From the NCBI RefSeq assembly GCF_038396675.1, contig NC_088934.1:37721001-37785000 (forward strand): a stretch of 64,000 nucleotides of DNA. Direction: 5' to 3'. Position 1 is the stretch's first letter; every line of letters begins with the position of its first letter. Below, one piece after another: positions 14,157 through 61,066 of the stretch. The position numbers and the translations under genes are program-made. Under the pieces are notes generated by a model, which was not told the origin of the DNA, did not search any database, and saw only the letters and a program-made list of their open reading frames with translations. Source of the stretch: Hydra vulgaris. Its lineage: Eukaryota; Cnidaria; Hydrozoa; Anthoathecata; Hydridae.

Positions 14157-16320
14157 TTAATTGTAAAACGGAACCATATGAATTTTCAATGTGGGATTAA
14201 AAAAAACGGTACTACTGAGATTGCTAAAGGTGAGAAGTTCAGCTTTTGAAATGAGAAACGACCATCTTGTTTGTTTTCAATCTTCTACATTGTTTATATC
14301 AAAGGTTGTTAATTGCCCTTGAATAACAGTGTTACGATTTTTTGTAAAATCAATATTGATGGTGACCTGAGTAGGATTTGTGTACTCTAATAACTTAAAA
14401 AAAGCAACAATTCCAGGAACATAAGTGCTATTCATATACATTCCACAATTGACAGCTTGATTGCATTTGATAAAAATGTAAGCGTCAGTAGTTGTAAGAA
14501 AATGGGAAACGTTGTTATTAAAATTACTAATTTGACTCAGAGTACATCTTAAAAAAGCCAATCTTTTTTTTTAGTTTTAAAATCTTGAGTCATGGCGTTT
14601 GTCATATTGTGATCTAGTTGCATAGTAAAAGGATTAATTTCTTGAGTTAAACTGTATTGCTCTCTTGTAAAAGCAAAGTATAAGGTAAAGGATTATTTCC
14701 AATGGGTTGATACATTTTTAAAATGATATTTTTTAATGGTAAACTGTCAGTCCAAGTTTGTACAATAGCTCCGTCACTCTTTTTTGATAAATAAACTGTC
14801 CGTTGAGCGAAGTGCAATAAAATATTAATTCTGTTGGATTATTTCCTTGTAATATAGCTTTGACACTGTTTAACTATGTTTTATGACTCGATGTAGTAGC
14901 TCTTTCAAAAGTAGTTGTAGTCACAAGAGGAACTTTGATGGTATTTGAAAACATGGGTTTGGCTTGCTCGCCATATAATAAGACTTCAATAAAGGTTTCT
15001 GCGTTATATATAGTAATTAAAGAGAGATCGTTTGTTATTATTTTATAAACATCTTCAGGTAAGTTAGAAGGTAAAACTTGAAATAGACTACCATTAATCT
15101 TAGGAGTACCTATGGGTACATTATTCCATGTATAACTGCTATCATAATCTGGATAGGAATAATTGTTCATTTGATGTTTTATTTGACCTTTCATAAGTAA
15201 TGTGCTAATTTTAATTGGAGATGATAATTTTCTTTGGAATGATGGTAAAGAAAAAAAGGAAAATAATTTGTAACTTTGTCTATAGGTTCAGCAATACATG
15301 AAGGTACACCTTTTGCTTTACTTGTAAGAAATTTATATAATATGGTAAAATCTGTTCCTGTAGAAGTATGATCGCTCAAGGTCAAGTTGTTTAAATCTAA
15401 ATTGAGCAAATTGTTTATCATGTTTAAACTTTCGGTAAAAACATCCATCATTTTTAATTCTCGTTCAGGCCATATCACTTGATCAACGTTAAAAATAGGT
15501 AAAGGTAAAGAAGCTAAAGGTACATTTTTTTAAGCATAACGATAATATTTTCTTTTGTTTGTTAAAGGAAAATCAAGTTGATAAAACTTGTCATTAACTC
15601 TGTAGGTTCTGCGATTTTTTAAATCGGTCGATCTAAAAGTGAGAAATTTTGTTAAGAGAGTTTTAGGTCCACTTGTAAAAGCTGTTTTAATAACATCTAC
15701 AAATTGTGGTAAAACTGTTTTAGTTGGTATAAACTCCGGGATAAAAAGGACTTTTAACGTCAACATGATCGTTCCAAATTTTCCATAAAGCATTGATATA
15801 TTTATTAACATTGTAGGGTATGTTGTAATCGTTAAGATTAGTTTCTACGTTATAAATGTTTCCCTCTACTGGTATTGTGTTGGTGTTGCTTATTATTTTT
15901 AATTAAAAAAAAGCAACTTGCCATGGTACAATATGTTTCATTTTTGTTTTAATACTTCCTAAAATAGGTAAAAGGTTATTAACATAAACATCTAAATCGA
16001 CACTAAGAATAATATCATCTGTAGTTAGCGCTGTTCCAGTTAAAGCTGGATTTTTGTAATTAGGTGTGAGCATAATATGAATAAAAGGTCGAACAAAGGT
16101 TTCTTCTATACCGTTTATTATCACTTCTCTTTCAGGTGAAATATTAGGTAGTAATGCCGGGTTTATAAGTGGATATTTTTTGCCGGGATTAAAAGTGGAT
16201 AGCGAGAGTATTTAATGATAAATTGTATATGTTTTCGTAAGTAGAACTAGTACTATTAGAGGTGTATTGTAATAATTTTGTAAAATCTTCTACAACGTAT
16301 GCACTTGAAGTTGTTCTGTT
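14157..16320 (-). pseudogene. Probable capsid protein B (large structural protein)
   Basis: About 720 codons that continue through single lesions: an in-frame TAA near 15903 and frameshifts near 16200, 15735, 15190 and 14700. It is polar and beta-rich with few charges and many Thr/Asn, for example ILSVDLDVYVNNLLPILG, RSTDLKNRRTYRVNDKFYQ and VTINIDFTKN. Its length and composition suit a major capsid (double jelly-roll) protein, making it a rival of gene A for that role. It ends with LKIHMVPFYN. There is no diagnostic motif; a structure prediction would settle it. Confidence 0.4.
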
Positions 16321-16372
16321 TGAAAAAAAAAAAAATAAGATTAACTTCTTTTGTTTAAACTTGTAAATATAA

Positions 16373-16624
16373 TCAAGCAGATCGAATAGGTTGTAAAAAA
16401 GAAGGATTCTTTATGTATTCGTTTCCTTTTCTGTAATACCATAACAAATTATAGTTAAGTCTATTACCACCAAACGCTAATGTATTGACGTTAAATTAAT
16501 TTAGTTAAACGTTGTTGTTATTTTTTATAGCGAATTTTATCATGGGTAAATTTACTAAACTGGTAACGCATCGAAGTTCAGTAAAAGGATCAAATAAATA
16601 TTTAGGAATAAAATATTTTGACAT
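16373..16624 (-). pseudogene. Small protein, 83 codons
   Basis: Starts MSKYFIPKYLFDPFTELR and ends with NPSFLQPIRSA. Two nonsense codons lie close together in the middle, without a frameshift. It sits between the large capsid-like gene and the 195-aa gene. No known domain; virion location is inferred only from neighbours. Confidence 0.4.
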
Positions 16625-16689
16625 TGAAATTCTACTCTCTTTATTATAATAACTTGAAAAAAAGTCTGAAAAGTCAAAACTCTATTTAA

Positions 16690-17277
16690 TTATGAATTAT
16701 AAAGTTTCAACCTTCTAATAAAAAAATTGTCTTGATTAACGTTGGAAATTGGAGCACCACCAAAGAGTTTACTTGTACCCGAATTGAGAGAATAATAGCT
16801 TGACATATTAGACAGGTGATCATTGTGTATGTTTTCCATATCTAATATGTCGTAACAAGGAAACGTATCACCTGGTAACGGTATATGATTTGCATACAAA
16901 ACAACATTTTTGGTGACAAGATAAAATTGATTTACTAATCTGGTAGGATTAGCAATCATGTTGTTTTGCATATCTGTTAACATTTGTTTTATAGCAGGTT
17001 TGGATTCCATTCTTAAACCATAATTGTTTTTTAAGAACGATAAGTTTTCGTCTACTCGACTTAAATTGGTAGGAACGTTCATGCTCATTAAATGCATAAT
17101 GGCATTATTTTTAAATGTAGGTTTGTTTATATCATTAGAGGTCAAGGATAGACTAAAGTCGTTCAACACATTATAATGCACGCTAGCTTCATTTTTATTT
17201 TTAGTTTCGTTAAAATAATACGTACTACAATCATATTTATTTACATCTAATACATCGTCAAATGTTATATTGTTCAT
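16690..17277 (-). CDS. Hypothetical protein, 195 aa, intact
   Basis: Opens MNNITFDDVLDVNKYDCST and ends FFIRRLKLYNS. It is polar, Asn-rich and has no signal peptide, membrane segment or Cys cluster. A stretch NNYGLRMESKPAIKQMLTDM could be helical. It is the longest undamaged frame of the structural block. It starts 7 bp after the stop of the integrase gene upstream on the same strand, so it may be co-transcribed. Possibly a minor virion protein; function unknown. Confidence 0.6.
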   Translation of the reverse strand: MNNITFDDVLDVNKYDCSTYYFNETKNKNEASVHYNVLNDFSLSLTSNDINKPTFKNNAIMHLMSMNVPTNLSRVDENLSFLKNNYGLRMESKPAIKQMLTDMQNNMIANPTRLVNQFYLVTKNVVLYANHIPLPGDTFPCYDILDMENIHNDHLSNMSSYYSLNSGTSKLFGGAPISNVNQDNFFIRRLKLYNS

Positions 17278-17283
17278 TTTTCC

Positions 17284-18572
17284 TTATTTTCTTTTTTTCT
17301 TGCAGTTTTTTTTCAAAGGTTTTAAAAAAGTATCAACATACTCGTTAAAGTTTTTATAATAAATGTCTTTATCTTCTTTGTTAATAGGTAATAAATCTTC
17401 TCGTTTGACTTTGTGTCGTATTTAAATCGCCTACTTGTCCAACTTTATAAATATAAGCGGGTAAGTAACCTTCTACTGAAGGGTTGGAGCATTCAGAGAC
17501 TTTCATAATAATTACTTTTTTTGTAGTGTCCCAATACGTATGATTACGAGTAGTGGATTTACTAAAGGTATCTTTGGCGTCTATTATATATTTTTTCAAA
17601 TAATATTCAGTTCCAATAGATAAAGGTTTCAATATTTTTAGTTTTTCGTTTTTGTATTCTTTTTCTACACGATGTAACATATTGGATGAAAAATTATGTC
17701 CTCGTCTTTTAGCGTTGCGGTATTGATCAATTAAACGAAGTGCTTTACCTTTAGCGTTGTCGGCGTCCGAATCTTTAGGACTGATTCCACTGGTTATTTT
17801 TTTCTTTTTCGTTTAATTTTTGTTCAATATCTTCGATATAAAAACTCCAATTGTTTTTTTGAAGTTCGTCTTGCTTTCTTAATTTTTGATAAAGTAATTT
17901 TAAACGTCCTATCGCTGATTCAGCCAAATAAGCTTTTCCATAAACTTTAGAATTAAAATGATAAATATTTTGCTCTTCACACCATTGGTTCATTTTATTA
18001 TTAAAAAATTCACCACCTTGATCTGTTTGTTGGTAAATAAAAGTTTTAAGTCTCTTTTAATATCTTCAAAAATATGTTTAAAACTACTAAGTACTTTGTC
18101 TGCGCTTTTTTTACTGGTCACTCTCAAATAAACTTTCCCCGAAACTCCATCAACTACAACTAAGCAAAATTCAGGTCGATGAGGAGCAAAATTTAAATTA
18201 AAACTGTCCATATCAGCCAAATCAGCTTGAAAATATTGACGAGCTGCGTCAAATAAAAATTGATGAGTCTCGTTGACCTAGGGTTTTCTAGGAGCTTGTT
18301 TTTAACGTTGACATCGGTTGTTTTTTTAAAGAGTAAAGTTTAATGTGATCAAGCCGTTATTAATCCATTCCATTTGGCATAGGTGGAACTTTCTAAAAGT
18401 GTTTTTAATTGTTCATAAAATTTTAAATCTGTTGAATTTTTTTTAAAGTGTCATATTGAATCAAAATTTTTTTAAGTTTAGGTACGTCTGTCAAACTAAA
18501 CAAACGACTTGATAATTTGGTAAGTTGGTCTTCTACAATGTTATCAATAGCATCTCTCAAGACGTAATTCAT
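17284..18572 (-). pseudogene. DDE integrase (retroviral/Maverick type)
   Basis: The rve catalytic core is clear: first Asp in YFQADLADMDSF, second Asp in QQTDQGGEF, Glu in KAYLAESAIGRLK, with VVDGVSGKVYLRVTSKK between. A C-terminal small barrel (KVGQVGDL) and a basic end (KPLKKNCKKKRK) follow. The N-terminus starts MNYVLRDAIDN at 18572. It would cut and join the viral DNA ends, using the TIRs of the element. Frameshifts lie near 18420, 18290, 18040, 17770 and 17420, so it is inactive here. All three catalytic residues are still encoded. Confidence 0.85.
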
Positions 18573-21644: not shown

Positions 21645-22390
21645 TTAAGCGTCTACTGGGATAAATGCTTTTTGTTCTTTACTTGTAATCTGAGTTCTTA
21701 AGCGTACTTCCGTACAGTTTCTTATAAATAAAGCCAAATGACCGTGTTGATTAGATGTTTCTTTGTTTAACAAATCACTTATGATGTGATGCATTTTACC
21801 AGCAGAAAGAAAATCACTTTTAAATATTTTTTCAATTTCGCTATTGTTATCAAAAGAAATAATACATTTGTAATGGGATACTAAATTGTTCCAACATTGA
21901 CTCAATTTAGAAGGAACCGAATGAAAGATGGTAATGGTACCCACTCCGTGATGTGATCCGCTAGAACATGCGCTAGTATATTGTTGACTTTTTAAACAAA
22001 AAGAGCTAATGTCATCAAACAAAAGTATTGTTTTAATAATCAATGATCGCTGTTTTGAATACCATATTTATCTTTTGAGAAACTAATAGCTCTCTGTATA
22101 ACTGAATCTAAATTTTCTGGACTATTTACTGTTAATATATCATAAGCTTCTAAATTATTTTTAGTTGAATTAATAATATCACTGGGCTCTCTGATTTGTA
22201 TAACAAATAACATTTCAGCGTCAGGAAATTTACCATATTGTAACATTTCCCTCGCCATGGTAGATTTTACATTGTTAGTAGGACCAGTAATAATTGTATT
22301 TTCAGGATACACATCTTTGGTAGGTTTAAAAATATTAAATTTAACTTGAGAATTGCTTTGTTCATCTTTTAGTTCAGGTTCGTCTATTTT
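21645..22390 (-). pseudogene. A32-like genome-packaging ATPase
   Basis: An FtsK/HerA-type ATPase that would pump viral DNA into the capsid. Walker A is TIITGPTNNVKSTMA, Walker B is TILLFDDIS, and GVGTITIFHSVPS matches the family's third motif. Ser-His-rich residues around SGSHHG precede it. A frameshift at about 22040 splits the Walker A half from the Walker B half, and another lies near 22380 in the N-terminal lead. In Walker A the usual Gly before Lys is Val (NNVKS), an extra sign of decay. The length suits the roughly 250-aa adintovirus ATPases. Confidence 0.8.
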
Positions 22391-22444
22391 TCCTTTTATA
22401 TAAAAACTATGAAACCTTTTTCAATTAATATTTCAGTTATAGAT

Positions 22445-27266: not shown

Positions 27267-28400
27267 TTAAAATTTGTTCATTGTACTTTCTTGAGCTTTA
27301 TGAACTGTAACAGAAAAAGCTACTCGTAAAGGTAAACCCACTCTTGAAGCTACAATAGCGTGAGAACAATCTAAAATATCTTCTTTCTCGGGTTCAATTT
27401 TGAATTCTCTCCTATTCATATTAACCCAAACAGCATTGTTTTCTATTAAAGTGACTATACCAACTATACCATTACATAGTTCTTCTTCTACATTGATATT
27501 TCTCACTAGCATAACAACAGCATTTATTTTAAGATGAATAGCTACAGGAATTTGAAATATAAATTGATTGTTTGGATTTATAATAACGTCTTTAGCATGA
27601 AACCAACGTCCTTTATCGTTTATTTCGTTCATTTTCATAGCATTATTAAAATCTACTTCTGCAATTTAAAAAAATAATCTTGTTTATTTAACATTGATAC
27701 TTTCATCTTTTTCAAAATGACGAGTCATTAAATAATTAACAGTTTGATCTGAAACTTTACCAAAACGTATTTCATTTAAAGCTTCAAAAAGTTTTTCATC
27801 TTCTTTATGTCTCAAACATTTTATTAAAACAAGAACATCTTTCATGTATTGTTGCCATATTAACGATCTAAAAACAAATATCCTTTGACTGGTAATAATT
27901 GAAGAAAATCTCCACAAGCAATAACTTGTATACCTCCAAAAAGTTCATCATCACATTGTTTAATTTTACAAGCTATTAAATGTAACAAATCAAATGTTTG
28001 CGCGTTAATCTTGAAAAAAATAAAATTAAAATTTCATCAATAATTAAAACATCAGTTTCTAACCAACGTTTTTTAACATCAGGATGCATATGTTGCATAT
28101 AATAATCTAAACCTTTTACTCCTGTTTCTATACCTGCAAAAGCATGTATAGTCATACCATTTAATAAATGACCTGCTTTTCTGTACTCGCTTTATTATGT
28201 ATTGTTTTATATATTTGTCCACTATGAGCAATTTCTTTTACTAAATAACTTTTTCCACAACCAGCACCTCCAGTAATAAAAAAATTAAGTCCTTTGTTAA
28301 GCCATTGAAAAGCTTTTTGTTGTTGTAAAGATAACACTTTTTTATTTTTGGTAAAAAAAAAATTACTAAAAAATTTTTTAATCTGAATATAAATACAAAT
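27267..28400 (-). pseudogene. Pif1-like SF1B helicase
   Basis: Walker A FFITGGAGCGKSYLVKEI follows a Q-motif-like LSLQQQKAFQWL. Walker B is TDVLIIDEI. The C-terminal part has IHLKINAVVMLVRNINVEEE, NGIVGIV and AFSVTVHKAQESTM (normally HKSQG). The order and motifs are those of Pif1/RecD2-type helicases carried by several Polinton-like and large DNA viruses, which unwind DNA in replication. At least four frameshifts lie between 27640 and 28200. Inactive in this copy. Confidence 0.85.
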
Positions 28401-28635
28401 AGGCACACTTGATAAAAAACATCATAAAAATAAGTTTTGCATCAATGTTCATTCTTAATTTAAACATAAAGTCATTATTATCATCATCGTCCGATAAAAG
28501 TTTCAACGTTGTCATTTCATCATTGTTCAAAGTTTCCATTTCATTAACTTGATTAAATACCATCATAGTCCGATTCATTTTTACCATTTTTAATAATAAT
28601 TGCGTATTGCGTGTTTGTCTTATTATATCCATCAA
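28378..28635 (-). CDS. Hypothetical protein, 85 aa
   Basis: Starts MMDIIRQTRNTQLLLKMV, with an acidic middle (LLSDDDDNND) and a hydrophobic C-terminus (LIFMMFFIKCAYLYLY) that may be a membrane anchor. Its end overlaps the helicase start. TTTTTTTTGATGGATATAAT at the start resembles the oligo(T) start element of its neighbours. Confidence 0.4.
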   Translation of the reverse strand: MMDIIRQTRNTQLLLKMVKMNRTMMVFNQVNEMETLNNDEMTTLKLLSDDDDNNDFMFKLRMNIDAKLIFMMFFIKCAYLYLYSD

Positions 28636-33345: not shown

Positions 33346-33365
33346 AAAGTAAAAAAAATTACCTA

Positions 33366-33990
33366 ATTTTACATTTAGTAAATAAACTATTTTCCAAGAT
33401 ATATTTACTCAAATCTGATTTTTTCATAACATCACAAAATCCATAACTTTAATTCATGCCAGCTTTCGGTGGTCGTTGAAAACAATCACCATCATTAGTA
33501 ATTAAACTTTTTTCAATTTTAAAACCTTCAGGACCATATATTATAAATTTTACTGATCTTCCTGAAACATGCCATTTTAAAACTGCATCACATTATGTAG
33601 AAGTCATAACAATAAACAAACCAGTTTCATCCTTTTTATCAACTATAATTAATTTCATCATAAACATGTGAGTAGTGGACTTGCAAAACCCGATAATTCA
33701 CTTTTTTGTCATTTCGAGATAATTGGCAAAAACTGTTTTCAGAAAATCTGTTTGTTATGCAGTTTTGCATGGACTACTTAATTTTAACCACTGAATTTGT
33801 GATAGAAATATTGGATTCTGCATGTCCTGAATTATTTTCCTGATGCAAAATTACATGAGCTATCTAGTGGTGTGTGCAAGTCAGATTTTTTGAAAAAGTG
33901 AATTTTCAGGTTTTGCAAGTCCATTCCTCATGTATTCTTTAAAATAAAATGGAGCACAATAATAAGCTTTACTCTAAATCTGTTTAATCT
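33366..33990 (-). pseudogene. Hypothetical gene split by a MITE
   Basis: The coding pieces YYCAPFYFKEYM (right of the MITE) and MMKLIIVDKKDETGLFIV (left of it) are in a plausible single gene interrupted at 33669-33931. The left piece goes on to VLKWHVSGRSVKFIIYGPEG and ends KYILENSLFTKCKIR, with two nonsense codons. Function unknown. Confidence 0.45.
33669..33931. mobile_element. MITE inside a viral gene
   Basis: The ends are inverted copies: TGGACTTGCAAAACC...AATTCACTTTTT at the left, and the complement at 33893-33929. No coding capacity. Length about 260 bp. It inserted after the virus integrated, or into the viral genome before. Confidence 0.75.
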
Positions 33991-34012
33991 TGTCATCAAA
34001 ATTTGTTAAAGT

Positions 34013-34336
34013 TCACAGTTTTTGAGCTGTTCTTTCTTTAAAATTTGTTTCTTCCAAATATGAAATTCGAAATTCAAAATCTTTCATTTTTTCAATATCA
34101 AAAAATATATTACTCAATACACCTGCAGCGTTATTACTTTGAATAATAACAGTCGGTTTCATTCTATTTTCTTCATTCTCTTCTTTCTGATAGTCCACAT
34201 TATTAATAATATTGCCAGATTTAATATTATTTTTGATTATCTTGCTAACAGTTTGAACACTCGAATTGCTATCACCTTGATAATAATCATTGATTTGAAC
34301 ACCATTATCAGTTTCAATGCTATCATTATCTGCCAT
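34013..34336 (-). CDS. Hypothetical protein, 107 aa
   Basis: Intact; Asn/Asp/Ser-rich N-terminus (MADNDSIETDNGVQINDYYQ) and a helical C-terminal part (MKDFEFRISYLEETNFKERT). The start is preceded by TTTTAGATAAATAAAAAAAATA. Likely disordered at the front; no family recognised. Confidence 0.5.
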   Translation of the reverse strand: MADNDSIETDNGVQINDYYQGDSNSSVQTVSKIIKNNIKSGNIINNVDYQKEENEENRMKPTVIIQSNNAAGVLSNIFFDIEKMKDFEFRISYLEETNFKERTAQKL

Positions 34337-34384: not shown

Positions 34385-34837
34385 TTATTTTCCCGTTGAA
34401 CCAAAACCACCATTTCTAACTTCTTCTTTAATCATCGAAGTGGTAACTTCACGACAAGAACATTCTACAAATTCTGTAACTATTTTGTACGGCTTTAATG
34501 TTTTTATAAACCCCATCTGTGCAACAGCTTCTCCTCGTTTAATATAATAATCTTTCTTTGAAGTATTATAAAGTAACACTTTAATTTCATCTTTATAATC
34601 TGAGTCTATTATTCCTGGAGAATTTAAAACTATAACACTATATGTAAGAGCAATACCCGATTTGGAATATATTTTTCCATGTATATCTTCATCTATTTTA
34701 TCAATATATACACCGGTGGATACTAAAATACGTTCTTTTGGAAGAAGTATATGATCTTTTCTACTTCTCAAGTCAAAACAAGCACTCTCTTTTGTAGCAT
34801 AAAATGTCCATTCTTCTACATCTCTTATTTTAATCAT
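34385..34837 (-). CDS. dut: dUTPase (trimeric type)
   Basis: Splits dUTP into dUMP and pyrophosphate, keeping uracil out of viral DNA. All five motifs are present in 150 aa: 1 ESACFDLRS, 2 GKIYSKSGIAL, 3 PGIIDSDYKDEIKVLLYN, 4 IKRGEAVAQMGF, 5 RNGGFGSTGK. The catalytic Asp of motif 3 and the motif 5 P-loop-like Gly/Ser are intact. The ATG follows TTTTTTTAG with no spacer. It is the only enzyme gene of the element with no lesion, and its length is normal for the family. Confidence 0.95.
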   Translation of the reverse strand: MIKIRDVEEWTFYATKESACFDLRSRKDHILLPKERILVSTGVYIDKIDEDIHGKIYSKSGIALTYSVIVLNSPGIIDSDYKDEIKVLLYNTSKKDYYIKRGEAVAQMGFIKTLKPYKIVTEFVECSCREVTTSMIKEEVRNGGFGSTGK

Positions 34838-35327: not shown

Positions 35328-35345
35328 TTTTTATAATCTAAAAAA

Positions 35346-35471: not shown

Positions 35472-35541
35472 CCCAGTCGGCAAAATTAGTTGTAAATGCG
35501 CATTAGAAACTCGTTTAAATACGTATCGATGTGGTATGTAT

Positions 35542-36968: not shown

Positions 36969-36975
36969 TAAATAA

Positions 36976-37047
<72 letters not shown>
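36969..37047. repeat. (TA)n microsatellite
   Basis: About 78 bases of TA inside the nested element, directly left of the MITE at 37054. Confidence 0.95.
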
Positions 37048-37053
<6 letters not shown>

Positions 37054-37054
<1 letters not shown>

Positions 37055-37383
37055 GGGGAACATGGGGTAAAATGACAAATGGGGCAAGATGACGACCTAC
37101 AGTTATCTCTTAAGCAAAACTAAATATAACAGTTGACTTTAGCTGAAAGGGAAGTTGATTAATTTTACTAGATTTATCAATGGTTTCTTTTTAAATATTA
37201 TTTTTGTGACGAAAGCTAAGTATTAAAAAAGTTTTTCCAACATTAAGAAAAAAATTTTTTATCTTTGTTTGACTTGATTTATTACATCGCTACATCACCA
37301 GATAAAGGTAAGTTTTAATTTTTGGGACAGACTAAGATACAGGCATTTTTCGAAACAGTTGTCATCTTGCCCCATGTTCCCCT
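37054..37383. mobile_element. 330-bp MITE with GGGGAACATGGGG ends
   Basis: Left end AGGGGAACATGGGGTAAAAT, right end the complement of AGGGGAACATGGGGCAAGAT. It is flanked by TAT(A) on both sides, compatible with a TA target. No coding capacity. A third-level insertion: MITE in nested element in virus. Confidence 0.85.
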
Positions 37384-38597: not shown

Positions 38598-38790
38598 CAT
38601 AAATATTATAAGAAGTGTTTATATATGTTATATAAATTTAAATAAATATATTGTGTTTTATAGTTAGTATATATGTTTATATTATGTTGTTTCCATGACA
38701 TGGAAACAACATAATCTAAACATATATACTAACTATAAAACACAATTTAAATTTATATAACATATATAAACACTTCTTATAATATTTATG
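38598..38790. repeat. Long near-perfect palindrome (~190 bp)
   Basis: CATAAATATTATAAGAAGTG at 38598 returns as its complement ending at 38790, with the axis near 38697 (GTTTCCATGACATGGAAAC). The left arm has a few extra TA bases. It would form a hairpin of about 90 bp. A fold-back MITE is likely. Confidence 0.85.
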
Positions 38791-39985
38791 TACGCAATAG
38801 ATACATTTTACACTATTTTAAAAATACATTTAGAAAACAATTATATAACACATATTACCACATACATATATTCATCAAAAATATTTTAATTTTGATCATA
38901 ATATAAACATATATGCAAACTATAAGCATATATAAATTGACTTGCGTGAACAAAAAACTTAAAAATAACATGAAAAAATCTAAAAAGATTTATATTAATT
39001 TATAAATAAAGACAAATATCTCGTAATAAAATATCAAGTTATAATCGTATTTAATTTAAATCAAATACTTATTGAATAAAGAACAAAAAACAGATAAAAG
39101 AACTGCAATCCTAATAACAAAATTTAACGTTTAGCAACAATTAAAATGTCAGTGTTGGCTCAAAAATTTTAACTTATTTTTCAAAATTTTTCTAAAACAG
39201 AACAAAAAAAGGTAATAGCAGAACAGAAATAATAATAATAAAATAATAATCAACAGAATAAAATAAGCAAGGTATGAAATGATAGGATTTAACGTATATT
39301 TGAATTATATTAATTTAGGACTTCATAAATCTAAATTAATAAATTTAAAAGTAGTAATGAATATTTTTATGATAAAGTTTTAGTAACTCTTTTAGTGCAA
39401 TAAAGTACTGTAACTGTACTGGAGATAATTTACTAAATTTCTCAAGAGAAATCTTTTTAATTTAAATTTTGTTTTCGCAATTTCAGTTTAAGCATGCGCT
39501 TTAAAAGCAAAGATTTTCGTTTTTCCATTTTTTGTTAATATTTGATCAAAATTGTTTTCGATATCATATCCGATTTTGATCAAATATTATAAATACGTAT
39601 TTTTGATAAATAAGTGGTATTGAACTCGAATTCGAAACTTAAAACTAAATGCGTATTTTTCTGGTATCAACGGCGGTATGTTATACGTGATCAATACTCC
39701 GAGTATTTACAATACTAGATATGCCGACTGGGTTGCTAGAAGAAATTGTTTTGATATTTGAGCAAGTGATTTTTCCACCTTTTATTTCAAAAGGTTTACT
39801 AAAGTAGTCACAACAACTTATCTTACCTCATTAAAACAGAATTAAAGTATCAAAGTAAAGAGTTTAAAGTTCAATGGTGTTATCATGCTACATTTGAACT
39901 TTAAACTTTATGACATCAAGATTGCACAATTCATAAAAAAACTTGTTTAAATCTGGGTTTTTAATCTCTCTTTTCAAAAGAAAAC

Positions 39986-39996
39986 AGTATAAAAGG
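39986..39996 (+). promoter_or_regulatory. TATA box of right-arm first gene
   Basis: CAGTATAAAAGGAAC lies about 50 bp before the ATG at 40039, the distance expected for a TATA promoter with a short 5' leader. Confidence 0.55.
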
Positions 39997-40038
39997 AACA
40001 AATTTTTATTTTGAATTTATTCAAAGCCAAGTGAAAAA

Positions 40039-43276: not shown

Positions 43277-43860
43277 ATGTGCACTAATAAATCTTTGTCT
43301 CATTGTTTTAAAAACTCTGAATTTAAAAATTATTTTTATAGGAGTATATGCCTTTGATGACCTCAGTCAAACCCAAACCCATATTTATATTATTATAAAT
43401 ATGAAAAAAATGGTTCTTTTATCATTTACAATAACGAAACTTCAAAAGAAGCAGGTCAACATTGGAGAGTGTTAATCAAAGTAGACAATGCTTCTTTTTT
43501 CTGCTTTGATAGTTTAGGAGAAGAAAGTGTACTACAACAAATTCAAAATTATTTAAGATATAATAGACATTTGTTTAAAGCTGTAGAAGTAAATTAAAAC
43601 TAATGTACAAATCAACACTATTAATATCAAATATAACGAAATTGAAATTAATTCCCATATTCGACAAACACACCATTTCCCAACAGAATGGACCGCAGAT
43701 AACCACGAATTTTATTGGTTTACTAAATTTATTTCAAAATATAGCGCTATAACTGGAAATCAAAATGTTTTTTTTCATATATCAAATTTCCTTTTCAAAA
43801 TGAATAATAGCAGTTTATGTGGAGCATTTGCTGCCTATTTTTGTAGCCCTTTTATTTCGT
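43277..43860 (+). pseudogene. Adenain-like cysteine protease (Ulp1/C5 fold)
   Basis: Matures virion proteins in adenoviruses and Mavericks. Visible pieces in order: GVYAFDDL, EAGQHWRVLIKVDN (catalytic His in QHW), FFCFDSLGEE (acidic partner), PFQN and then SSLCGAFAAYF (catalytic Cys in LCG). The order His, Asp, Gln, Cys is that of adenain. At least four frameshifts (near 43335, 43400, 43600 and 43795) break it. The N-terminus is set by ATG 43277. Confidence 0.8.
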
Positions 43861-44415
43861 ACTGAAAATGTTTTATATACTGATCAAATTTATTTACCTT
43901 CACTGTGCAGATTGCTTAATGATTACTTCTTCGAAGTGACATCTCTGCATGCTTCTGACATAATTCAAATAAATCTTTATATATTTTTTCAGTTTATTAA
44001 ATTGGAATTGTTAAAATATCTTGATGCTGCTGCCAAACACTTGTTTAAAAAAGGCATACATTTGCCTTCATATATGAGAAAACAAGAAAGACTGGATCGA
44101 AAACTGTTATCTATGAAAACAAAACAAATTTCTTTGGATCATGATATTTTTAAAAAACAAGTATTGGCTCAAAATAAAATTAGAAGTTATTTATTAGATG
44201 CTCGTTTCTTAAGAACTAATAACGAATGCACTTGGGATAAATTACCCATATTAGATAATAGTACTATTCCTTCTGCATTAAACGAAGAAAATATTTATTA
44301 CATGCAACAAGAAGAAATGAATAGAATTTACTTGAACAATTATTCTCGATTAAAGACCATAAATCAATTTTTAGATAATCCTATTGATGATGTCATGACT
44401 AAAAAAGAAATATAA
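43861..44415 (+). pseudogene. Helical protein after the protease
   Basis: An open frame overlaps the protease end and runs to 44415. It has no early ATG, so its N-terminus is uncertain. Clear parts are LLKYLDAAAKHLFKKG and RKQERLDRKLLSMKTKQ, ending PIDDVMTKKEI. It could be a minor capsid or pVI-like protein, as these often lie near the protease, but no motif shows it. Confidence 0.4.
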
Positions 44416-45724: not shown

Positions 45725-46021
45725 TCAGACACGACTTATTGTATATAATTTATTTACAATATCATATTCTAATACAAGTCCACCTAAAAAAGTGGATATT
45801 TTTGTGTGTCCGTGACCTTTATTCCCACTTATGATTTTAGCTATTCCGTCTTTGTATTCGTATATCAATATATATTCTCCACGTTCGCTCGTATGTGTTC
45901 TTAAATTCTTCATTCTGTTTCTGTATCGACTGTATTTATTTATTTCTTTTAACAACAACATATAATCGTTCCAATTTTCTTTCACATGTTTAAAAATGAT
46001 TGTCCAAAACAACTTTTGCAA
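45725..46021 (-). CDS. Hypothetical protein, 98 aa
   Basis: Intact. Helical basic N-terminus (KHVKENWNDYMLLLKEINKY). The second half is strand-rich (GEYILIYEYKDGIAKIISGN), a pattern loosely like the KVTRSN paralogues next door. The perfect hairpin at 46036-46091 lies 15 bp before its ATG. Confidence 0.5.
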   Translation of the reverse strand: MQKLFWTIIFKHVKENWNDYMLLLKEINKYSRYRNRMKNLRTHTSERGEYILIYEYKDGIAKIISGNKGHGHTKISTFLGGLVLEYDIVNKLYTISRV

Positions 46022-46035
46022 TATTTTTTATTATG

Positions 46036-48861: not shown

Positions 48862-49164
48862 TTGTTTTATTTATCGTCGGAAGAAGAGATGGATTCAGAA
48901 GAAGAAATGACTGAAGAAGATTTTGAAGAATATATAGAGTTTGAAATGCAAATGCTAGAAGACGAAGCAAACGAAACGGATGACGAAGAATATATAGAAG
49001 AATTAAAAAGACAAATGTTAGAAGAAGAAATGATAGAAGATATAGAAAATATAGACAATATAGTCAATATAGATATAGACAATATAGAAGAATATATAAA
49101 TAGTGTGTTAAATAATATGGAAGATATACCTGAATTAGATTTTTATAACTTTTGTTTTTTTTAA
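48862..49164 (+). CDS. Highly acidic protein, 100 aa
   Basis: Intact. Glu/Asp-dominated helical repeats (SEEEMDSEEEMTEEDFEEYI; MLEEEMIEDIENID). Could mimic DNA or bind basic proteins; such acidic proteins are common in large DNA viruses but not diagnostic. Confidence 0.5.
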   Translation: MFYLSSEEEMDSEEEMTEEDFEEYIEFEMQMLEDEANETDDEEYIEELKRQMLEEEMIEDIENIDNIVNIDIDNIEEYINSVLNNMEDIPELDFYNFCFF

Positions 49165-49209: not shown

Positions 49210-49509
49210 ATGGAAGAAATCGAAAATAATATAATTGTTCAACCAAATTTCTTCTTAGCATTAGAAGAAAACGAAATTAATGATGATGATGACGATGATG
49301 ATAATGATAATGATGAAGAGCTCGAAATAGACTATGATGAAATAGAAGATAATATGTATCCAGGATTTGGACAACTTTATGATGATGTTGAAGAAAAAAT
49401 AGAAACTATAACTTTTAAAGAACAAGAAGTTTATAATGATAAAATTAATATAGAAAATTTTTTTTATCACTCATTATATTTTTATATTTTTTATTTTTAT
49501 ACATGTTAA
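49210..49509 (+). CDS. Acidic protein, 99 aa
   Basis: Intact. Starts MEEIENNIIVQPNFFLAL, has a poly-Asp run (NDDDDDDDNDNDEELE), then YPGFGQLYDDVEEKIE; the hydrophobic end may be read-through into intergenic DNA. TTTTTTTTTAGGTAACTAA lies 15 bp upstream. Confidence 0.5.
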   Translation: MEEIENNIIVQPNFFLALEENEINDDDDDDDNDNDEELEIDYDEIEDNMYPGFGQLYDDVEEKIETITFKEQEVYNDKINIENFFYHSLYFYIFYFYTC

Positions 49510-49544: not shown

Positions 49545-49850
49545 AATGGCTCATCTGATGGCTTTTTTGAATTTTTTTTGAAAATTTGAATAAAGATAAA
49601 AGGTATCAGTTATTATGCGCTTTCAATAAAGTGGACGAAGCAATACAGGAACTTCAACAAGAAGATGTTATTGACCCTGAAAAGTTGAAAGAAAAATTTA
49701 AATTTATTTACGATGAAATTTTAAAAATAAAAGAACTTAGACAAATCATATATAAAGATACAGCAGATAAAGAAATAGAAGAAGCTACAAAAAAAGTCGA
49801 CTTTACTTTAGCAGAAATAAATAAAGTTTATCATTTTTATACGATTTATT
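49545..49850 (+). pseudogene. Coiled-coil protein
   Basis: ATG 49545 (MAHLMAFLNF) is followed by a frameshift near 49580. Then comes a helical body: YQLLCAFNKVDEAIQELQQ, KLKEKFKFIYDEILKIKELR, KEIEEATKKVDFTLAEINK. Downstream the frame runs into a hydrophobic AT-rich tail. A possible donor after NK (AAA|GTTTATC) could splice to the TTTTTTTAG at 49926 and give an early stop. Confidence 0.45.
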
Positions 49851-49941
49851 TTTTTGTTAAAGACTTGTTCTTTTTTTCATGTTTTATAATCCTTTTTTTA
49901 TATAAATATATCATTTCTTTTTTTAGCAACTAATATAAAAA

Positions 49942-50901
49942 ATGTCTAGCAACATGTATCCATGCTGTTTTTGCGAAGTACCATTTCCTATGGAACAACT
50001 ATTGATACATCAACAAGAATGTGCCGACGATAAATTTACTCACGAATGTTTCATATGTAAAAAAAAAGTCAAAGACCTTTTAAATCATAAATGTGAATAT
50101 GAATTTGAAGAGCAAGAGAAAAATATACTGTTTTTTTTGCAATACGACTACTGATAAGAAAGACTATGAGGAACACAGTATCATTTGTTTTCATCATTAC
50201 AAAGATACTCAGAACCAATACTACGAGGAACAAAAGAAAAGTTTAAATTATATGAATCTTTCCATTAACAATTGATGTTTACAATGAAAATTTAAATGAA
50301 AAATTAAATGCTTTAGCTAAACAACTAGTAGATAACAAAGAAATCAAAAAACTCAACGATGAAATTACAAAACTACATCAAATCTTCGAAGAAAACAACA
50401 CTGAATTCTGAGAATTAAAAGGAGTCGTTTTTCAAAACGTATTTAACAAAGAAAAAAAAGGTAACACAACATCCATTTAAAGATTTAAAAATCATAAAAT
50501 TAGATCAAATGGATCTGAGACTTTTATTCAACGAGCCTTATTATTCGCTACCAGTTTACACTACTGAAGGTTATCTCTATCGTACGAAAATTTATGGACA
50601 CGATGTTAAAGAAGAGCACATGTCAATTTATTTTCAATTAATTCAAACCGAACATGATCGCGCTTTAGAATGGCCATTTACTAAAAAAGTGGTATGTAGT
50701 TTTAGAAACAACAAGAAATATTATGCTCACACCATTTCATTAGAAAATCATACTCAATTTTCTAATTATGGAACTAGAAGTTTTGATAAGCCCAAAGAAG
50801 CATACAACGAACCAGTTGGTTTTCAAAGTTTTATTAACCATCAAGAACTTAAAAACTTTATAATAAACAATACTTTATACATTACTATTTCTATTCAATA
50901 A
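49942..50901 (+). pseudogene. TRAF-like protein: zinc fingers, coiled coil, MATH domain
   Basis: The N-terminus has TRAF-type C-x2-C-x11-H-x4-C fingers: YPCCFCEVPFPMEQLLIHQQ, HECFICKKKVKDLLNHKC and, after a frameshift near 50120, CFFCNTTTDKKDYEEHSIIC. A coiled coil (NEKLNALAKQLVDNKEIKKL) follows. The C-terminal MATH/TRAF-C domain is in an open frame: EPYYSLPVYTTEGYLYRTKI, HMSIYFQLIQTEHDRALEWP (the typical EhD-LxWPF), GFQSFINHQELKNF and NNTLYITISI. TRAF proteins link TNF/IL-1 receptors to NF-kB. No RING is seen. It starts 16 bp after TTTTTTTAGCAACTAATA. Three lesions split the gene, but the MATH part is whole. Confidence 0.75.
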
Positions 50902-51010: not shown

Positions 51011-51433
51011 ATGAATCCATCAGATATTTTAAGACAAATGACAAACGAGTTTACTAGAGACAATGTTAGAAATATCAGATATATATTGAAAGTTCTACTT
51101 GGTGTAAAAAAAAAATTAAAAGAAGCTATCGACATTATGGATTATATAAAAAAAAACGCTGTTGAAGATGATAATGGAAACGTTTATGAAAGTATGGAAA
51201 GTAAATTATATTATATACTGCAAATTTCCAATGTTATTGGTCGAAAAGATATATACAAGAAATTTTAAAATAAAATCCCTCGTTTACCTACATATAAAGA
51301 AACCATAAATTTAGCAATGAGCTGCGAACAAAGTAAAAAATTACCTCCTGTATACTCATCTGAAGGACAATATTACCCTAGTCAAGTTGTTAATGTTAAA
51401 CAAGAAAAACTCTGTGAATTTTGTAAACGCTAA
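51011..51433 (+). pseudogene. Death-effector-like helical protein
   Basis: 140 codons in one frame with a TAA at codon 86. Features: ILRQMTNEFTRDNVRNIRYI, LKEAIDIMDYIKKNAVEDDN and LYYILQISNVIGRKDIYKKF. The last resembles the end of a death effector domain (LxxLLxxIxRxDL). The C-terminus has Pro-rich and Cys parts (LPPVYSSEGQYYPSQ; CEFCKR). It follows the TRAF gene and is preceded by TTTTTTTAGATTAACTAA. The fold is tentative. Confidence 0.4.
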
Positions 51434-51498: not shown

Positions 51499-52001
51499 AT
51501 GCATTACATCTTCTACAGTGCTATTCCAATCGAAACGTATCATGATTTAACGATTATACCAAAAGACCTTCAAGAAGAAACTAAACGTCATTTAGATTAT
51601 GTTATAAGCCTTACTCCTGGTATTAAAAAACCTAAAAAAACAACACTAATTTGGTTTAAAAAAGAGGAACCACATTTTTACATTGTTATTATTATGATGC
51701 TTATCATTTGCAAGTTTACGATGATACCTTTGATAAAGAAATTCAAACCAAATTAACCTTAAAAGATCTCTGCAAAAGATTATTAGCTCAAAAAAGAATA
51801 TTATACGAATTCAATATTTTACGAGAAAATATTATTACCCTATTTGACAAAACCAAAACTCCTAATAGCAAATGGAAAGATGGAGTCAATATTAGAGAGT
51901 TCTTTTATAATAGCGAGAAAGATCATTATTTTAAACCCATGTTGGAAGAAAAAAAACATTTATTTTTTTTCTATCTTCAAAGACGTTTACTATATATTTA
52001 A
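51499..52001 (+). pseudogene. Hypothetical protein, one frameshift
   Basis: Starts MHYIFYSAIPIETYHDL after CTTTTTTAGATAACTAATTA. A frameshift near 51690 leads to TFDKEIQTKLTLKDLCKRLL, FNILRENIITLFDKTK and KWKDGVNIREFFYNSEK. Mainly helical. Downstream GTTTTTACAG at about 52012 may be an acceptor. Function unknown. Confidence 0.5.
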
Positions 52002-54255: not shown

Positions 54256-54312
54256 TTTGAGTATTTTTATGTTTGAAAAATTGTTTGTGATTGGCATAAC
54301 GTTTTTTTCTAT

Positions 54313-54830
54313 TTGCCGACGGTTTTTCATTTTGGAAATGTTCCGGAATATAAAGAAAAAGTGTATTTTGGAATTAGCGAAACACCTTTTAAAGTTCGGT
54401 ATGCAAGCCACTTAAAATCTTTTAATGCAGTTAGGTACAAAAATGATACAGAGCTATCAAAAGAAGCATGGAGTTTAAAAGTTAATTTTAAAGCTGTTAG
54501 ACTAATTAATCCTGCTAAAAGTGATATTGGAAGAATTTCAAAATCTATTGTATCCAACATTAATTCCGAGCTGAGAAAGAAGCTATTTTTGAACCAATGG
54601 CGAAACACTCAAAATGTTATACATTGGTTTCAAACCATAAAAGAAAAGCAATTCTGTAAGTTCTTAGTCTTTGATGTTAATGATTTTTATCGATCGATTA
54701 ATGAGAACGTACTAAAAAATGCAATGACTTTTGCAGAGCAACATCTACCAATAAATAGCGAACAAGAGTTTTATACACCATGCAAGAAAATCATTATTAT
54801 TTAGCAATCAAACTGCTTGGATTAAGAAAA
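54313..54830 (+). pseudogene. Penelope-like element: EN piece joined to RT N-terminus
   Basis: First the GIY-YIG start (VYFGISETPFKVRYASHLKS ... NDTELSKEAWSLK). Then, in the same frame and without a gap, the N-terminal RT region: NPAKSDIGRISKSIVSNINS, LNQWRNTQNVIHWFQTI and CKFLVFDVNDFYRSINENVL (RT motif A area, where FDVxDFYxSI is typical). In a normal PLE the RT comes first, so this is a head-to-tail junction or deletion product. The frame ends at 54802. Confidence 0.8.
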
Positions 54831-56969: not shown

Positions 56970-59518
56970 ATGGATTCAAATCGCTCTAAGAAATTTGATA
57001 TTTTCAAATTTAATGACTTTATACTTAACAAAGAGTCCGATCCGGATCAAAGTTATTTTAGTGAAACAGATGCTTTACAAAGCAATTGCAGCTATGTTTA
57101 TACTTTTGAAATAATTGAATTTCTTGAGTGTGATAAATTTAATGCAATTTGTTTAAATACAAGAAGTTTAAAAAAAATTTTGAAAATCTTTGCAATAGTT
57201 TTAGGAAAATCTAACTATTTTGAGTGTAATTTGCCTAACTGAAACCTGGTGTAGTTCTGATGACTCAAATTTAGATAATAATTTTAAAATACCGGGCTAA
57301 AATTTAATTTCATTGGGGCGGAAAACAAATAAACGCGACCGTGGTTTAATTATTTATGTAAAAGAAAACCTACAGAATTTTGTTAGACATGACATGAGTA
57401 TTTTGACCTCAATATAGAGGTTTTAACAATTGAAATATTGATTAAGAAAACTAAAAACATTGTAATTAGCTGTAGTTTATGACATCAATTTTCCCAAAGT
57501 AGAAATAAATTACAAACATAAAAAAATTGAATCGTCATTGATTACTAAGGGTATTCTAACATCTTCTAAAATTAAACAAAGACTTTGTATTAAATATTTA
57601 AAATCAAAAACAATTGAGAGTAAGACCATTTATAAAAATTGCGTAAGACCATTTGAACGCCTTAGGAAAAATTCAAAATCCATATACTATCCTAATTTAC
57701 TTGAAAAATACAAACTAAACTTAAAACGCACTTGACAATTAATAAACGAAATTACGGGTAGCACTAAAAAAATATCGCATTCTTTGCCCTCATTTATTAA
57801 AGCAGATGATAATTTTTTTCTTGATCAAAAAACAATTGCTTCCGAATTTAATAAATATTTTGTATCTGTAGGACAAAATCTAGCCGAAAAAATTCCAAGC
57901 ACTAAAAAATTAATAAAGGCAACATATGACCTTCTAAACTCGTATCTAAATTTTTTTGATTTGTCTTTTAAGGAGTTTGAAAGTGCCAGTAAATTGCTAA
58001 AGTCAAATAAAGCATTTGGTCCAGATGATATCAATAGGAATGTTATTATAAACTGTTTTGACGTTTTAAAAGACATACTTTTTCAAATTTTTAAATACTC
58101 TATTAATCAGGGAGTTTTTCCTGATGATTTAAAAATAGAAAAAATTATTTCTATATTTAAAGAAGGAGAAAAAACGAATGTAAAACACTATCGTCCAATT
58201 TCTATACTCTCTGTTTTGTCTAAAATTTTAGAAAGAATTTTGTACAACAGATTATACAATCACCTTTTATCAAACAATTTAACATGCAATATGGATTTAA
58301 AAAAAATAATTCAACAGAGCATGCTATTTTTTAGCTTACAAGAAGTATATCAGACTCATTTAGTAATTCTAAATTCATATTGGGGATATTTATTGATTTA
58401 GCGAAAGCGTTTGATACCATTAATCATTAAATTCTTGCTAAAAAATTAAAATGTTATGGTATAAAAGGCAATGTTCTAAAACGGTTAAAAGATTATTTAA
58501 CTAATCGTAAACAATTTGTTTACGCCAATGAAACATTATCATCAAACTTGTTAAATATTACATGTGGAGTTCCTCAAGGATCCATATTAGAACCTCTTCT
58601 TTTCCTTAATTATATTAATGATTTATGCGAAGCCTCGGATTTAATAACAATTATGTTTGCTGGCGACACTAATTTATTTATGTCTCACAAAAGCATTCCT
58701 ACTTTATTTAATTGCGTGACACCGAGTTAATCAAAACATCTAACTGGTTTAAGACTAACAAATTATCTCTTAACATTGATAACACTAAATGGGTTCTTTT
58801 CCATCTTCTTATCAAAAAACATAAACTGCCAATTAACATGCCTCATCTTCTTATTGACAATATACAAATTAAACAAGTAACAGTAACCAACTTTCTAGGT
58901 GTTTGTATAGATGAAAATCTTACATGGAAAAGTCACATTATAAACTTATCAGGTAAAACCTCAAAAAGTATAGAAATATTGTACAAAGCAAGAAATGTTT
59001 TAAATAAACGTACTTTTGTACAATTATATCACTCATTTGTTCATTGTCACATAAACTATGCAAACATTGCTTGGGGTAGTGCAAAGAAAATTAAACTTAA
59101 CCCTCTTTATTGTCAGCAGAAGCATGTAGCGTGTCATATATTTTAAAGACCGTTATACTCATGCCAAGCCTCTATTATTTGAAATGAAAGTTTTTAATAA
59201 TGTGATCTTAACATTTTTAATATTCTTTGTTTTATGTTTAAATGTAAAACCAATTCATCCCCGATTTCTTTCCACAATTTATATTCATTGAAAGATAAAA
59301 ATAAATACATTTTACGCAATGATATTTTTATTAAGCAGCCCATTTTTCAAACAAATCTTTTTAAGTTTTGTATTGATTATCGCGGACCTTTCTTATGGAA
59401 TAAAACAGTTTTGAAAAATTTTACTAAGGATTTTATTCATCAAAGTAACTACTTTTCTTTTAAACGAAAGCTCAAAGAACTCATTTTTACAATCGAAGAT
59501 GTAACAATACACTTTTGA
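56970..59518 (+). pseudogene. LINE ORF2: endonuclease-RT (copy B)
   Basis: The ORF2 start is MDSNRSKKFDIFKF. The endonuclease is mostly deleted: after a short fragment (CNLPN, then TWCSSDDSN) the text jumps to the RT linker at 57500. RT: KHYRPISILSVLSKILERIL, DLAKAFDTINH, CGVPQGSILEPLLFLNYIND and MFAGDTNLFM, where catalytic FADD is FAGD. The C-terminal connection domain shows FLGVCIDENLTWKSHI. Stops and frameshifts at about 57240, 57735, 58400, 58730 and 59146. Inactive. Confidence 0.85.
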
Positions 59519-59590
59519 TATTTTTTTTTAGTGATCTTTCTTTTTACCCCCTATTTAATCTCAATAATCTCAACATATTAGATTACGAAA

Positions 59591-60897
59591 AAAAACAATT
59601 ACATTATAAATGTCTTTAATATCATTTTTCAAAATAACTATATTCCAATAATCAATAAACTAACACGAATAACTAGGGAAAGTGCAACTTTTTTAGATCA
59701 AATTATTACAAATGAATTTATAAATAAAAAAATAAGGACGGGAATATTTAAGTCTGAGATTTCTGATCACTTTCCGATTTTTATTTTATCCCCAAAAAGC
59801 AGAAATGACGATCAAAATATGAGAAAAAAATAGTTAAAACACGTTTAGTAAACGAACCTTCCATTAGTCATTTTCATAATCTTCTATCCTATGTTAACTG
59901 GAATACCCTTCAATTTAATCTAAAGACTAATAAAGCGTATAATATATTTCTCACTGAATTTCTTAATTTTTATAGCAAGGCATTTCCAGTAGTTACTAAA
60001 GTAATCAAGACTAAAACACTTCTAGACCCCTGGATAACAAGGGGTATTCTTAAATCTTCTAAAAAAACAACGTTTATATAATAAGTTTCTTAAAAAAAGA
60101 ACTCTCAAAAAAGAAAACAATTACAAAAATAATAAACGGCTGTTTAAATCAATTTTAAAGCGCTCAAAAAAACATTACTATTCTGATCAATTATTAAAAC
60201 ACAAAATTGATTCCAAAAAAACGTGGAATATTATTAATGAGGTAATCGGAAAAAAAAAATTATACAGAAATTTACTTCCTAAAAGTCTTAAAATAAATAA
60301 TATTCGTATTATAAATAAATCCTTAGTAACTGAAGCTTTAAATCAGTTTTTTGTAAATATAGGGCCTACTTTATCATAAAATATAAAAACTACTCAAGTA
60401 AGTTTCGATTCATACTTAATCTCAACCAACACTAGATCTATGTCTAATTATAAACTTACAGAAAAAGAATTATTAGACGCAGTCTCTTTATAAAAGCCTT
60501 ATAAATCTTTCGGATTTGATAATATAAGTAGTAACGTCATTATCAAATCAATTAAACATACACAATTCCACTATTGCACATTTTTAATTTATCTTTACAA
60601 CAAGGTGTTTTTCCTGATAACCTAAAAATTGCAAAAGTCATTCCAATATTAAAATTAGGTGATCCTTCTGATATTGCCAATTATAGACCAATCTCAATAC
60701 TTTCTCGTTTTTCTAAAATATTAGAGCGGGTTATGTATAATAGACTATATTCTTTTTTAAATGTTAATAATATTCTTTATCATAAACAGTTTGGGTTTAA
60801 ATCTGGTCATCCCACAGAGCATGCAATCACTCATCTTGTTCATTATATATATAAACCAATTAAAAAAGACAAGTATACCCTGGGGGTGTTCATAAAA
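59591..60897 (+). pseudogene. Third CR1-like LINE, truncated (copy C)
   Basis: 5'-truncated: starts inside the endonuclease (INKLTRITRESATFLDQIIT; EISDHFPIFIL), then the linker and RT fingers (IANYRPISILSRFSKILERV; QFGFKSGHPTEHAITHLVHY). It ends at TLGVFI, exactly where the catalytic D motif should follow, and runs into the 170-bp repeat. So the RT core is missing. Confidence 0.8.
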
Positions 60898-61066
60898 AGC
60901 TAAATATTGTAAAACATTTTATATTTTATTTATATTTTGCATTTTCTTTGAAAATGTTATTTTATAATGATGCGTTTTTCGGGGCTTAATGATAAGACTA
61001 ATTTTGTCTTCTTCTAGCCCCAGTCATGTAAATTTTTCTTTTATTAATTACGATTGTAAAATTTTT
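60894..61066 (+). repeat. 170-bp dispersed repeat, copy 2
   Basis: AAAAGCTAAATATTGTAAAA to ATTACGATTGTAAAATTTTT, matching 1056-1226. The junction with the LINE is at the AAAAGC where RT similarity ends. Confidence 0.7.

Follow-up and report, generated by a model that had tools for sequence, protein, structure and literature searches.

A 64,000-nucleotide stretch of the Hydra vulgaris genome (C15:37721001-37785000, hereafter the window; the genome comprises 911.5 Mb in 15 contigs) contains a TRAF-like gene among genes of viral type, which raises the question of whether such a gene belongs to the host or to a mobile element, and what it could do in the latter. An initial annotation of this DNA had read it as a TRAF homologue captured by a Maverick-like virus. 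Our results leave practically no doubt that the TRAF gene is carried by the element, and our best reading, which we consider probable, is that a Maverick/Polinton-like element carries a RING-less TRAF/DED (death effector domain) module that would interfere with host signalling of the tumour necrosis factor receptor (TNFR) type.

The MATH domain with an EhD...LxWPF signature that had been proposed at 50509-50901 lies exactly there: the ATG frame at these positions codes for a MATH domain and includes the stretch TEHDRALEWPF. When its 130 amino acids (50509-50898) were compared with Pfam, they matched PF21355 TRAF-mep_MATH (E 2.2e-17, 64 bits against a cut-off of 27.4) and PF22486 MATH_2 (E 4.5e-15), so that the profile comparison suggested by the initial annotation came out in favour of its claim. 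Among the sequences of solved structures matched by this frame at E ≤ 0.01 (n = 26), 23 were TRAFs and the last three were meprins. A protein search led to 3 relatives and a profile search to 32, those three included, all of them named Hydra vulgaris. Four of these (P0009, P0016, P0017 and P0018) have the whole zinc finger - coiled coil - MATH arrangement in 356-365 amino acids, and by comparison with the relatives the gene in the window can be divided as follows.

49917..49941, plus strand: splice-acceptor-like sequence, a T-run and TTTAG with CAACTAATATAAAAA, directly before the TRAF start codon
49942..50151, plus strand: TRAF piece 1, zinc-finger units 1 and 2; blastp matches to 17 of 32 relatives, collinear with residues 1-55 of P0009
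50093..50272, plus strand: TRAF piece 2, in another frame, zinc-finger unit 3; 19 of 32 relatives, residues 62-112 of P0009
50277..50405, plus strand: TRAF piece 3, in the third frame, coiled-coil segment with an in-frame stop after it; 30 of 32 relatives
50419..50901, plus strand: TRAF piece 4, MATH (TRAF-C) domain; PF21355, 29 of 32 relatives and 150 of 150 scored places in the genome

The reading frame changes at least three times among these homologous pieces, which occupy three frames, and one stop lies in frame, so the copy in the window is broken, a point absent from the initial annotation. It is a decayed member of its element family, of which relatives with open frames exist.

The coiled coil proposed earlier is supported by homology, since the coiled-coil-like piece at ~50277-50405 aligns with nearly all the relatives (30/32). 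The claim of zinc fingers with TRAF spacing stood in part. There are three zinc-finger-like units, two in 49942-50151 and one in 50093-50272, and the spacing C-x2-C-x11-H-x3-C occurs twice across the six frames of the window, both times in the TRAF-like gene, and in none of 30 first-order Markov simulations; the middle unit has the form C-x2-C-x9-H-x-C. The AlphaFold model of P0009, which is of low confidence, shows a long helix at ~74-208 ahead of the MATH domain, and in a Foldseek search with it all 26 PDB matches at E ≤ 1e-3 were TRAF domains. Several results nevertheless stand on the other side. No TRAF zinc-finger profile of Pfam matched the zinc-finger pieces, and the closest solved structures to the first of them were C2H2 proteins (ZBTB20, E 0.002). 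The P0009 model has a mean pLDDT (predicted local distance difference test) of 57.8, and VIA-align left the MATH folds of TRAF6, SPOP and SIAH tied in Z and unseparated. An N-terminal RING is known from all TRAFs but TRAF1, and a RING pattern was found in 0 of the 32 relatives, many of which are N-terminally incomplete and could be tested only where the N-terminus is reached; a Pfam scan of 7 relatives gave neither a RING nor a TRAF zinc-finger match. In a MATH tree of 24 rows, made up of the window and the 23 of 32 proteins with enough MATH sequence, the window paired with P0001 (100/99), a protein flagged as a long row, and at least two lineages of the gene are therefore likely. MATH queries, both as a single sequence and as profiles, gave no matches in IMG/VR.

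Most of the 32 relatives carry the names TRAF5-like or TRAF3-like in NCBI, which would agree with a different origin, a host-derived multigene family of Hydra TRAF-like genes that expanded alone and near which viral genes lie by chance. We therefore turn to the genomic setting of the gene, which makes this origin exceedingly improbable. A search of the Hydra genome with the MATH domain gave 543 candidate places, 150 of which were scored; a MATH match was present in all 150 (E ≤ 3e-32), spread over 15 of 15 contigs, and in 58 of them (rows counted by eye) the match is free of stops within an open frame that reaches 320 amino acids or more.

Two copies, one on C10 and one on C14, share 3,524 identical bases counted from where the MATH match begins, beyond which they diverge abruptly, and a further 10 kb of the same copies are 99.0% alike; the likeness of these copies indicates that the element moved recently. 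The genome has 20 forward and 19 reverse occurrences of the terminal 24-mer (the last 24 bases, reversed), against 0 and 0 for a control. Paired in inverted orientation, these ends give 18 pairs, with three ends left single; the spacing is 42.40-42.81 kb in 14 pairs, 12-13 kb in two and 5.9 kb in two. Of the 14 long elements, 13 have a TRAF match at a distance of 3.06-3.14 kb from one of their ends, while for the fourteenth (C1:28.98M) the 150 scored places include none. A TRAF match is present in one 12-kb element as well, at 7.7 kb from an end. Of the 11 end pairs that were read, 9 are flanked by an exact 6-bp target duplication, and the remaining two lie inside TA repeats. The element begins and ends with TGATGA...TCATCA, and measurement of one copy gave a terminal inverted repeat (TIR) whose outermost 70 bp are 100% identical. 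The fixed position of the TRAF gene in end-bounded elements with target duplications argues that it is part of an integrating element and against a host family expanding on its own. The long elements represent a young subfamily that recently multiplied, 42.4 kb in length, with TIRs and 6-bp target duplications. To be set against this, the 24-base ends were not found in the window's own older copy; a repeat search for TIRs in the window showed only TA-type repeats among the 25 longest pairs, and a masked self-blast of the window gave no element ends.

The shorter elements with the same 24-base ends (5.9 kb at C15:25278284-25284210 and C15:25765103-25771029; 12-13 kb at C1:54861529-54873494 and C1:64706645-64719723) are probably internally deleted derivatives.

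The neighbours of the TRAF gene gave a congruent result. In the window, genes of the following types lie upstream of it.

34388..34837, minus strand: dUTPase (PF00692, E 1.5e-20)
27270..28421, minus strand: Pif1-type helicase, broken (Pif1_2B, E 4e-8; relative L024:1235-2311, PIF1, E 1.5e-36)
17384..18277, minus strand: rve integrase-like gene, broken; adjacent pieces weakly match rve 20-61 and 71-100
21648..22420, minus strand: packaging-ATPase-like gene, broken; P-loop GPTNSGKST in a relative's open frame, weak ATPase/AAA matches (best E 0.0013)
43361..44412, plus strand: cysteine-protease-like gene, broken; HW, FDSLGEE and SLCGAF motifs in relatives
14280..17283, minus strand: large gene, possibly for a structural protein; a single 1064-amino-acid frame in relative L060:4048-7239

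Six copies (on C1, C5, C10, C14 twice and C15) were compared over -21 to -1 kb and 0 to +10 kb. All six hold homologues of the Pif1 helicase, the dUTPase, the genes at 40-45 kb (the protease-like one included), the TRAF gene and the DED-like gene that follows it, and five of the six keep the gene order of the window. The same neighbours across 20 kb on five contigs stand against a host family with viral genes nearby by chance. The initial annotation had suggested looking for the gene in other copies of the element and had named, as the contrary outcome, a host fragment in unrelated loci; the neighbours are constant in 6/6 copies, and the gene lies inside 42.4-kb elements.

In the sixth copy (C14:26.87M, L021-L022) the block from the helicase to the ~45.7-kb gene is inverted with respect to the window. 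The region 35500-40000 of the window is missing between the dUTPase and the 40015 genes in the six copies, and so is probably a later insertion in the window; it contains a direct repeat (35541-35702/35759-35907).

As to what kind of element this is, the integrase-, ATPase- and protease-type genes, the TIRs, the 6-bp target duplications (a Maverick/Polinton trait) and the length place it, with good confidence, in the Maverick/Polinton group. A relative of the integrase-like gene cut by the end of its locus (L039:3-671) matched rve (E 2.6e-5), and together with the concordant weak pieces in the window we read it as a putative rve integrase. The dUTPase has an open frame in another copy (E 5.5e-22). 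For the protease-like gene the likeness to the adenovirus type is by motif only: the intact frame of a relative had no Pfam or PDB match, and the window sequence gave weak matches to SidE_DUB (E 0.0048) and to SENP8 (E 0.42, behind a caspase-7 entry at 0.35). Copies of the element also contain large unnamed open frames of 1064, 583, 712 and at least 895 amino acids, of which those of 1064 and 583 amino acids in L060 had no significant Pfam match. With Maverick/Polinton elements (polintoviruses, adintoviruses) the Hydra element shares TIRs and a 6-bp target duplication, and probably also an rve-like domain, a packaging-ATPase-type P-loop and an adenovirus-type protease motif. It differs in having the Pif1 helicase, the dUTPase and an accessory cluster of spliced-leader-like kind that includes the TRAF and DED-like genes. 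Maverick/Polinton termini are AG...CT, and the TGATGA...TCATCA termini and 70-bp perfect TIR found here are unlike them.

The assignment is weakened by the score of L039:3-671, which is 24.9 bits against an rve cut-off of 32.6, by the lack of a recognised family B DNA polymerase (PolB; no Pfam or motif match in the pieces scanned), and by the lack of a recognised capsid in the frames scanned. The term "virus" in the initial annotation draws on the integrase-, ATPase- and protease-type genes, with no PolB or capsid recognised, and the element may form virions. Queries with the integrase, ATPase and large-gene pieces gave no matches in IMG/VR, and an Rfam scan of the window gave 0 matches. At 42.4 kb, the element is near the upper limit reported for Maverick/Polinton, for which lengths of 15-25 kb, with a maximum of 40 kb, are given (PMC6431247).

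Other open frames of the copies and the surroundings of the element gave further matches. L033:1027-3504 (minus strand), homologous to the 22.4-24.3 kb region of the window, is an 826-amino-acid open frame with an endonuclease VII match just under the curated cut-off (E 1.1e-4), and L025:4986-5429 (minus strand), homologous to window 45728-46027, weakly matches TENA_THI-4 (E 0.0035). Remains of non-LTR (long terminal repeat) retrotransposons flank the element at 2666-4705 (minus strand) and 57736-60900 (plus strand), with Pfam RVT_1 on both sides and Exo_endo_phos_2 on the left only. At 54277-54801 (plus strand) lie possible remains of a Penelope-like reverse transcriptase, seen by eye, with no Pfam match at E 0.01.

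Next, we consider the genes that accompany the TRAF gene. The best 20 loci by MATH match (3.3-3.4 kb each; L001 is the window itself) were compared with the window, and the counts below include it.

51011..51268, plus strand: DED-like gene after the TRAF gene, with homology on to ~51412 past the stop; window piece matches DED at E 0.089
33362..34144, minus strand: second MATH gene, broken (pieces 33362-33673 and 33932-34144), located by tblastn with L024:7822-8436
51499..51998, plus strand: small cluster gene in two frames; 51660 piece in 18 of 20 loci, 51499 piece in 10 of 20
48862..49164, plus strand: acidic small cluster gene; homologue in 11 of 20 loci, some weak
49210..49509, plus strand: small acidic gene with a MYPGFG-type motif and an acceptor-like motif from 49175; 9 of 20 loci
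49586..49933, plus strand: small cluster gene; 8 of 20 loci

A homologue of the gene at 51011 is found in 19 of the 20 best loci, and the DED-like homologue in 6/6 copies examined; its frames have 131-139 amino acids and one DED-like domain. A DED had first been set aside after a negative fold search with a thin alignment, and was reinstated because open-frame relatives in two other copies match the Pfam DED profile (E 7.5e-7 and 3.8e-6). DEDs have the motif R-x-D-L, and the similar R-x-D-I is retained in the three aligned DED-like sequences (3/3). In our judgement the gene next to TRAF is quite probably homologous to a death effector domain. To be set against it are the scores of the two relatives (29.7 and 27.5 bits against a curated cut-off of 35.9) and the fold search with the window piece, which, from a two-row alignment (pLDDT 70.5), had no match at E ≤ 1e-3. 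A protein search with 51011 gave no matches.

The second MATH gene is ~30% identical to the first. Its relative L024:7822-8436, which adjoins the dUTPase, matches PF21355 at E 3.3e-19, and the gene was found in three of the six copies (L024:7822-8436, L037:2969-3493 and L021:8504-9028), tblastn not finding it in the other three. As for the small genes, L029:1062-1799, a relative of the 51499..51998 gene, had no Pfam match. The acidic open reading frame (ORF) at 48862 matched the NCBI protein P0028 non-significantly (E 0.072); genomic copies do support the gene. The product of 49210..49509 matches the N-terminal part of 5 of the 32 NCBI relatives.

The initial annotation had also noted a "viral start motif" shared by the TRAF gene and its neighbours. 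The motif is real: of the 75 ORFs of the window, 9 have T[CT]TTTAG in the 45 nucleotides before their ATG, compared with 78 of 2170 ATGs of all kinds. Four of these ORFs belong to the TRAF cluster (49210, 49942, 51011 and 51499), four to the dUTPase cluster (29422, 30099, 34837 and 35327) and one stands alone (24043), whereas the integrase-, ATPase- and protease-like ORFs lack it. Among the 14 loci on the plus strand, 8 (the window is one of them) have the acceptor arrangement ahead of the TRAF start; for the 6 on the minus strand the scan did not cover the coding strand. In L029, for which 8 ORFs are listed (one is the TRAF end and two begin with TTG or GTG), the motif stands ahead of all 5 ATG-started ORFs downstream of the TRAF gene. 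The recurrence of the motif shortly before element genes would also suit a viral promoter, an explanation we regard as rather unlikely: the motif has the form of a T-run plus AG, as Hydra acceptors do, and, as we read several NCBI models, their frame starts in the small gene ahead, continues across the bases that follow the AG and enters TRAF, as if spliced there. In a Hydra operon, the trans-splicing acceptor is described as a T-rich tract and AG with an ATG nearby (PMC3273482), and ~30% of Iso-Seq reads from Hydra transposable elements begin with a spliced leader (PMC12220107). Because the T-tract, the AG and the nearby ATG fit the Hydra acceptor, and leader-bearing reads of such elements exist, we read the motif as an RNA-processing site, probably a splice acceptor of the spliced-leader type rather than a promoter. 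Its absence before the TRAF start in 6/14 plus-strand loci tells against this.

Beside the dUTPase, window 34899-35330 (minus strand) encodes a small cysteine-rich protein with the same acceptor motif and no Pfam match.

What could such a cluster do? The multiplying element encodes two proteins side by side, one TRAF-like with no recognisable RING and one DED-like, a cargo which suggests that the element manipulates host defence. A Hydra-type splice acceptor stands before many of the small genes, so that joint transcription of the cluster is probable; the transcript would then be cut into capped mRNAs by the host spliced-leader machinery. The RING-less TRAF-like protein would trimerise, and its MATH groove could occupy the tails of receptors or adaptors without ubiquitin-ligase output. 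Together with the DED-like protein, it may block or divert TNFR/TLR-type signalling and caspase activation during replication of the element. The diversion of TNF-receptor or IL-1-type pathways proposed in the initial annotation would be an effect of this sort. We judge interference with host signalling, taken by itself, to be reasonably likely.

A coiled coil plus a MATH domain could also be used as a generic adaptor, and P0018 has a weak Phage_scaffold match (E 0.0032, probably coiled-coil noise), so the element-borne TRAF/DED cluster might instead serve the structure or assembly of the element as a scaffold or adaptor. We find this improbable, since the TRAF-type MATH, the DED-like gene and the second MATH gene jointly indicate death-receptor and innate pathways, and the acceptor motif is common to the TRAF and dUTPase clusters but not to the integrase-, ATPase- and protease-like genes.

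The protein might, by analogy, stimulate signalling rather than block it, as reported for the viral TRAF of infectious spleen and kidney necrosis virus (ISKNV), which promotes caspase-8-mediated apoptosis (PMC3352826). That protein, ORF111L, is likewise virus-borne, with a coiled coil and MATH, but it has a RING, and the cited portion of the same paper describes no DED partner for it (PMC3352826). The Hydra element differs in its zinc-finger-like units, the RING pattern missing from its TRAF relatives, its DED-like neighbour, its integration and its invertebrate host, and stimulation is accordingly an unlikely alternative to interference.

Among the BFVD matches to the model of a relative, ranks 2 and 3 were iridovirus TRAFs (E 9.7e-5 and 1.1e-3) and rank 1 an unnamed entry. 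TRAF4-like proteins of the giant viruses Hyperionvirus and Harvfovirus matched weakly in structure (E 3.5e-3 and 1.6e-2); they come from metagenomes, are TRAF-like by annotation, and are likened here by the protein alone. The vFLIPs of herpesviruses and poxviruses are virus-borne DED proteins of death-receptor pathways with two DEDs, against the one DED-like domain of the Hydra protein. The giant Gypsy elements of planarians called Burro are mobile and carry MATH_TRAF_C together with BIR and BCL2-like apoptosis domains (PMC6431247); Burro, however, is an LTR retrotransposon with a polyprotein, whereas the Hydra element is a DNA element with separate genes.

A bolder form of the favoured reading is that of a live or very recently live 42-kb double-stranded DNA virus-transposon with a complete death-receptor interference kit, namely two RING-less TRAF-like proteins and one DED protein, expressed from a spliced-leader operon in the manner of the host; we put it forward as a tentative possibility. 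Maverick is listed among the putatively active transposable element families of Hydra, and, as a point on the other side, the cited part of that study does not place it among the most expressed types (PMC12220107).

A literature search on TRAF in Hydra, Polinton, Maverick and adintovirus elements gave no report of such a gene, and in the cited portion of a 2012 paper virus-encoded TRAFs were known only from four fish megalocytiviruses (PMC3352826). Some 30 Hydra proteins called "TRAF5-like" or "TRAF3-like" in public annotation are probably mobile-element genes. If the interpretation proposed here is true, it would suggest that virus-like elements can express their gene clusters through spliced-leader trans-splicing. 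The Hydra copies would then constitute a natural record of a conflict between host and virus about TNFR-type signalling, outside bilaterians and in a laboratory cnidarian with transgenesis. On the bolder reading, immune subversion by an animal virus, cell-death control and the theft of host trans-splicing would be united in one element at the base of Metazoa.
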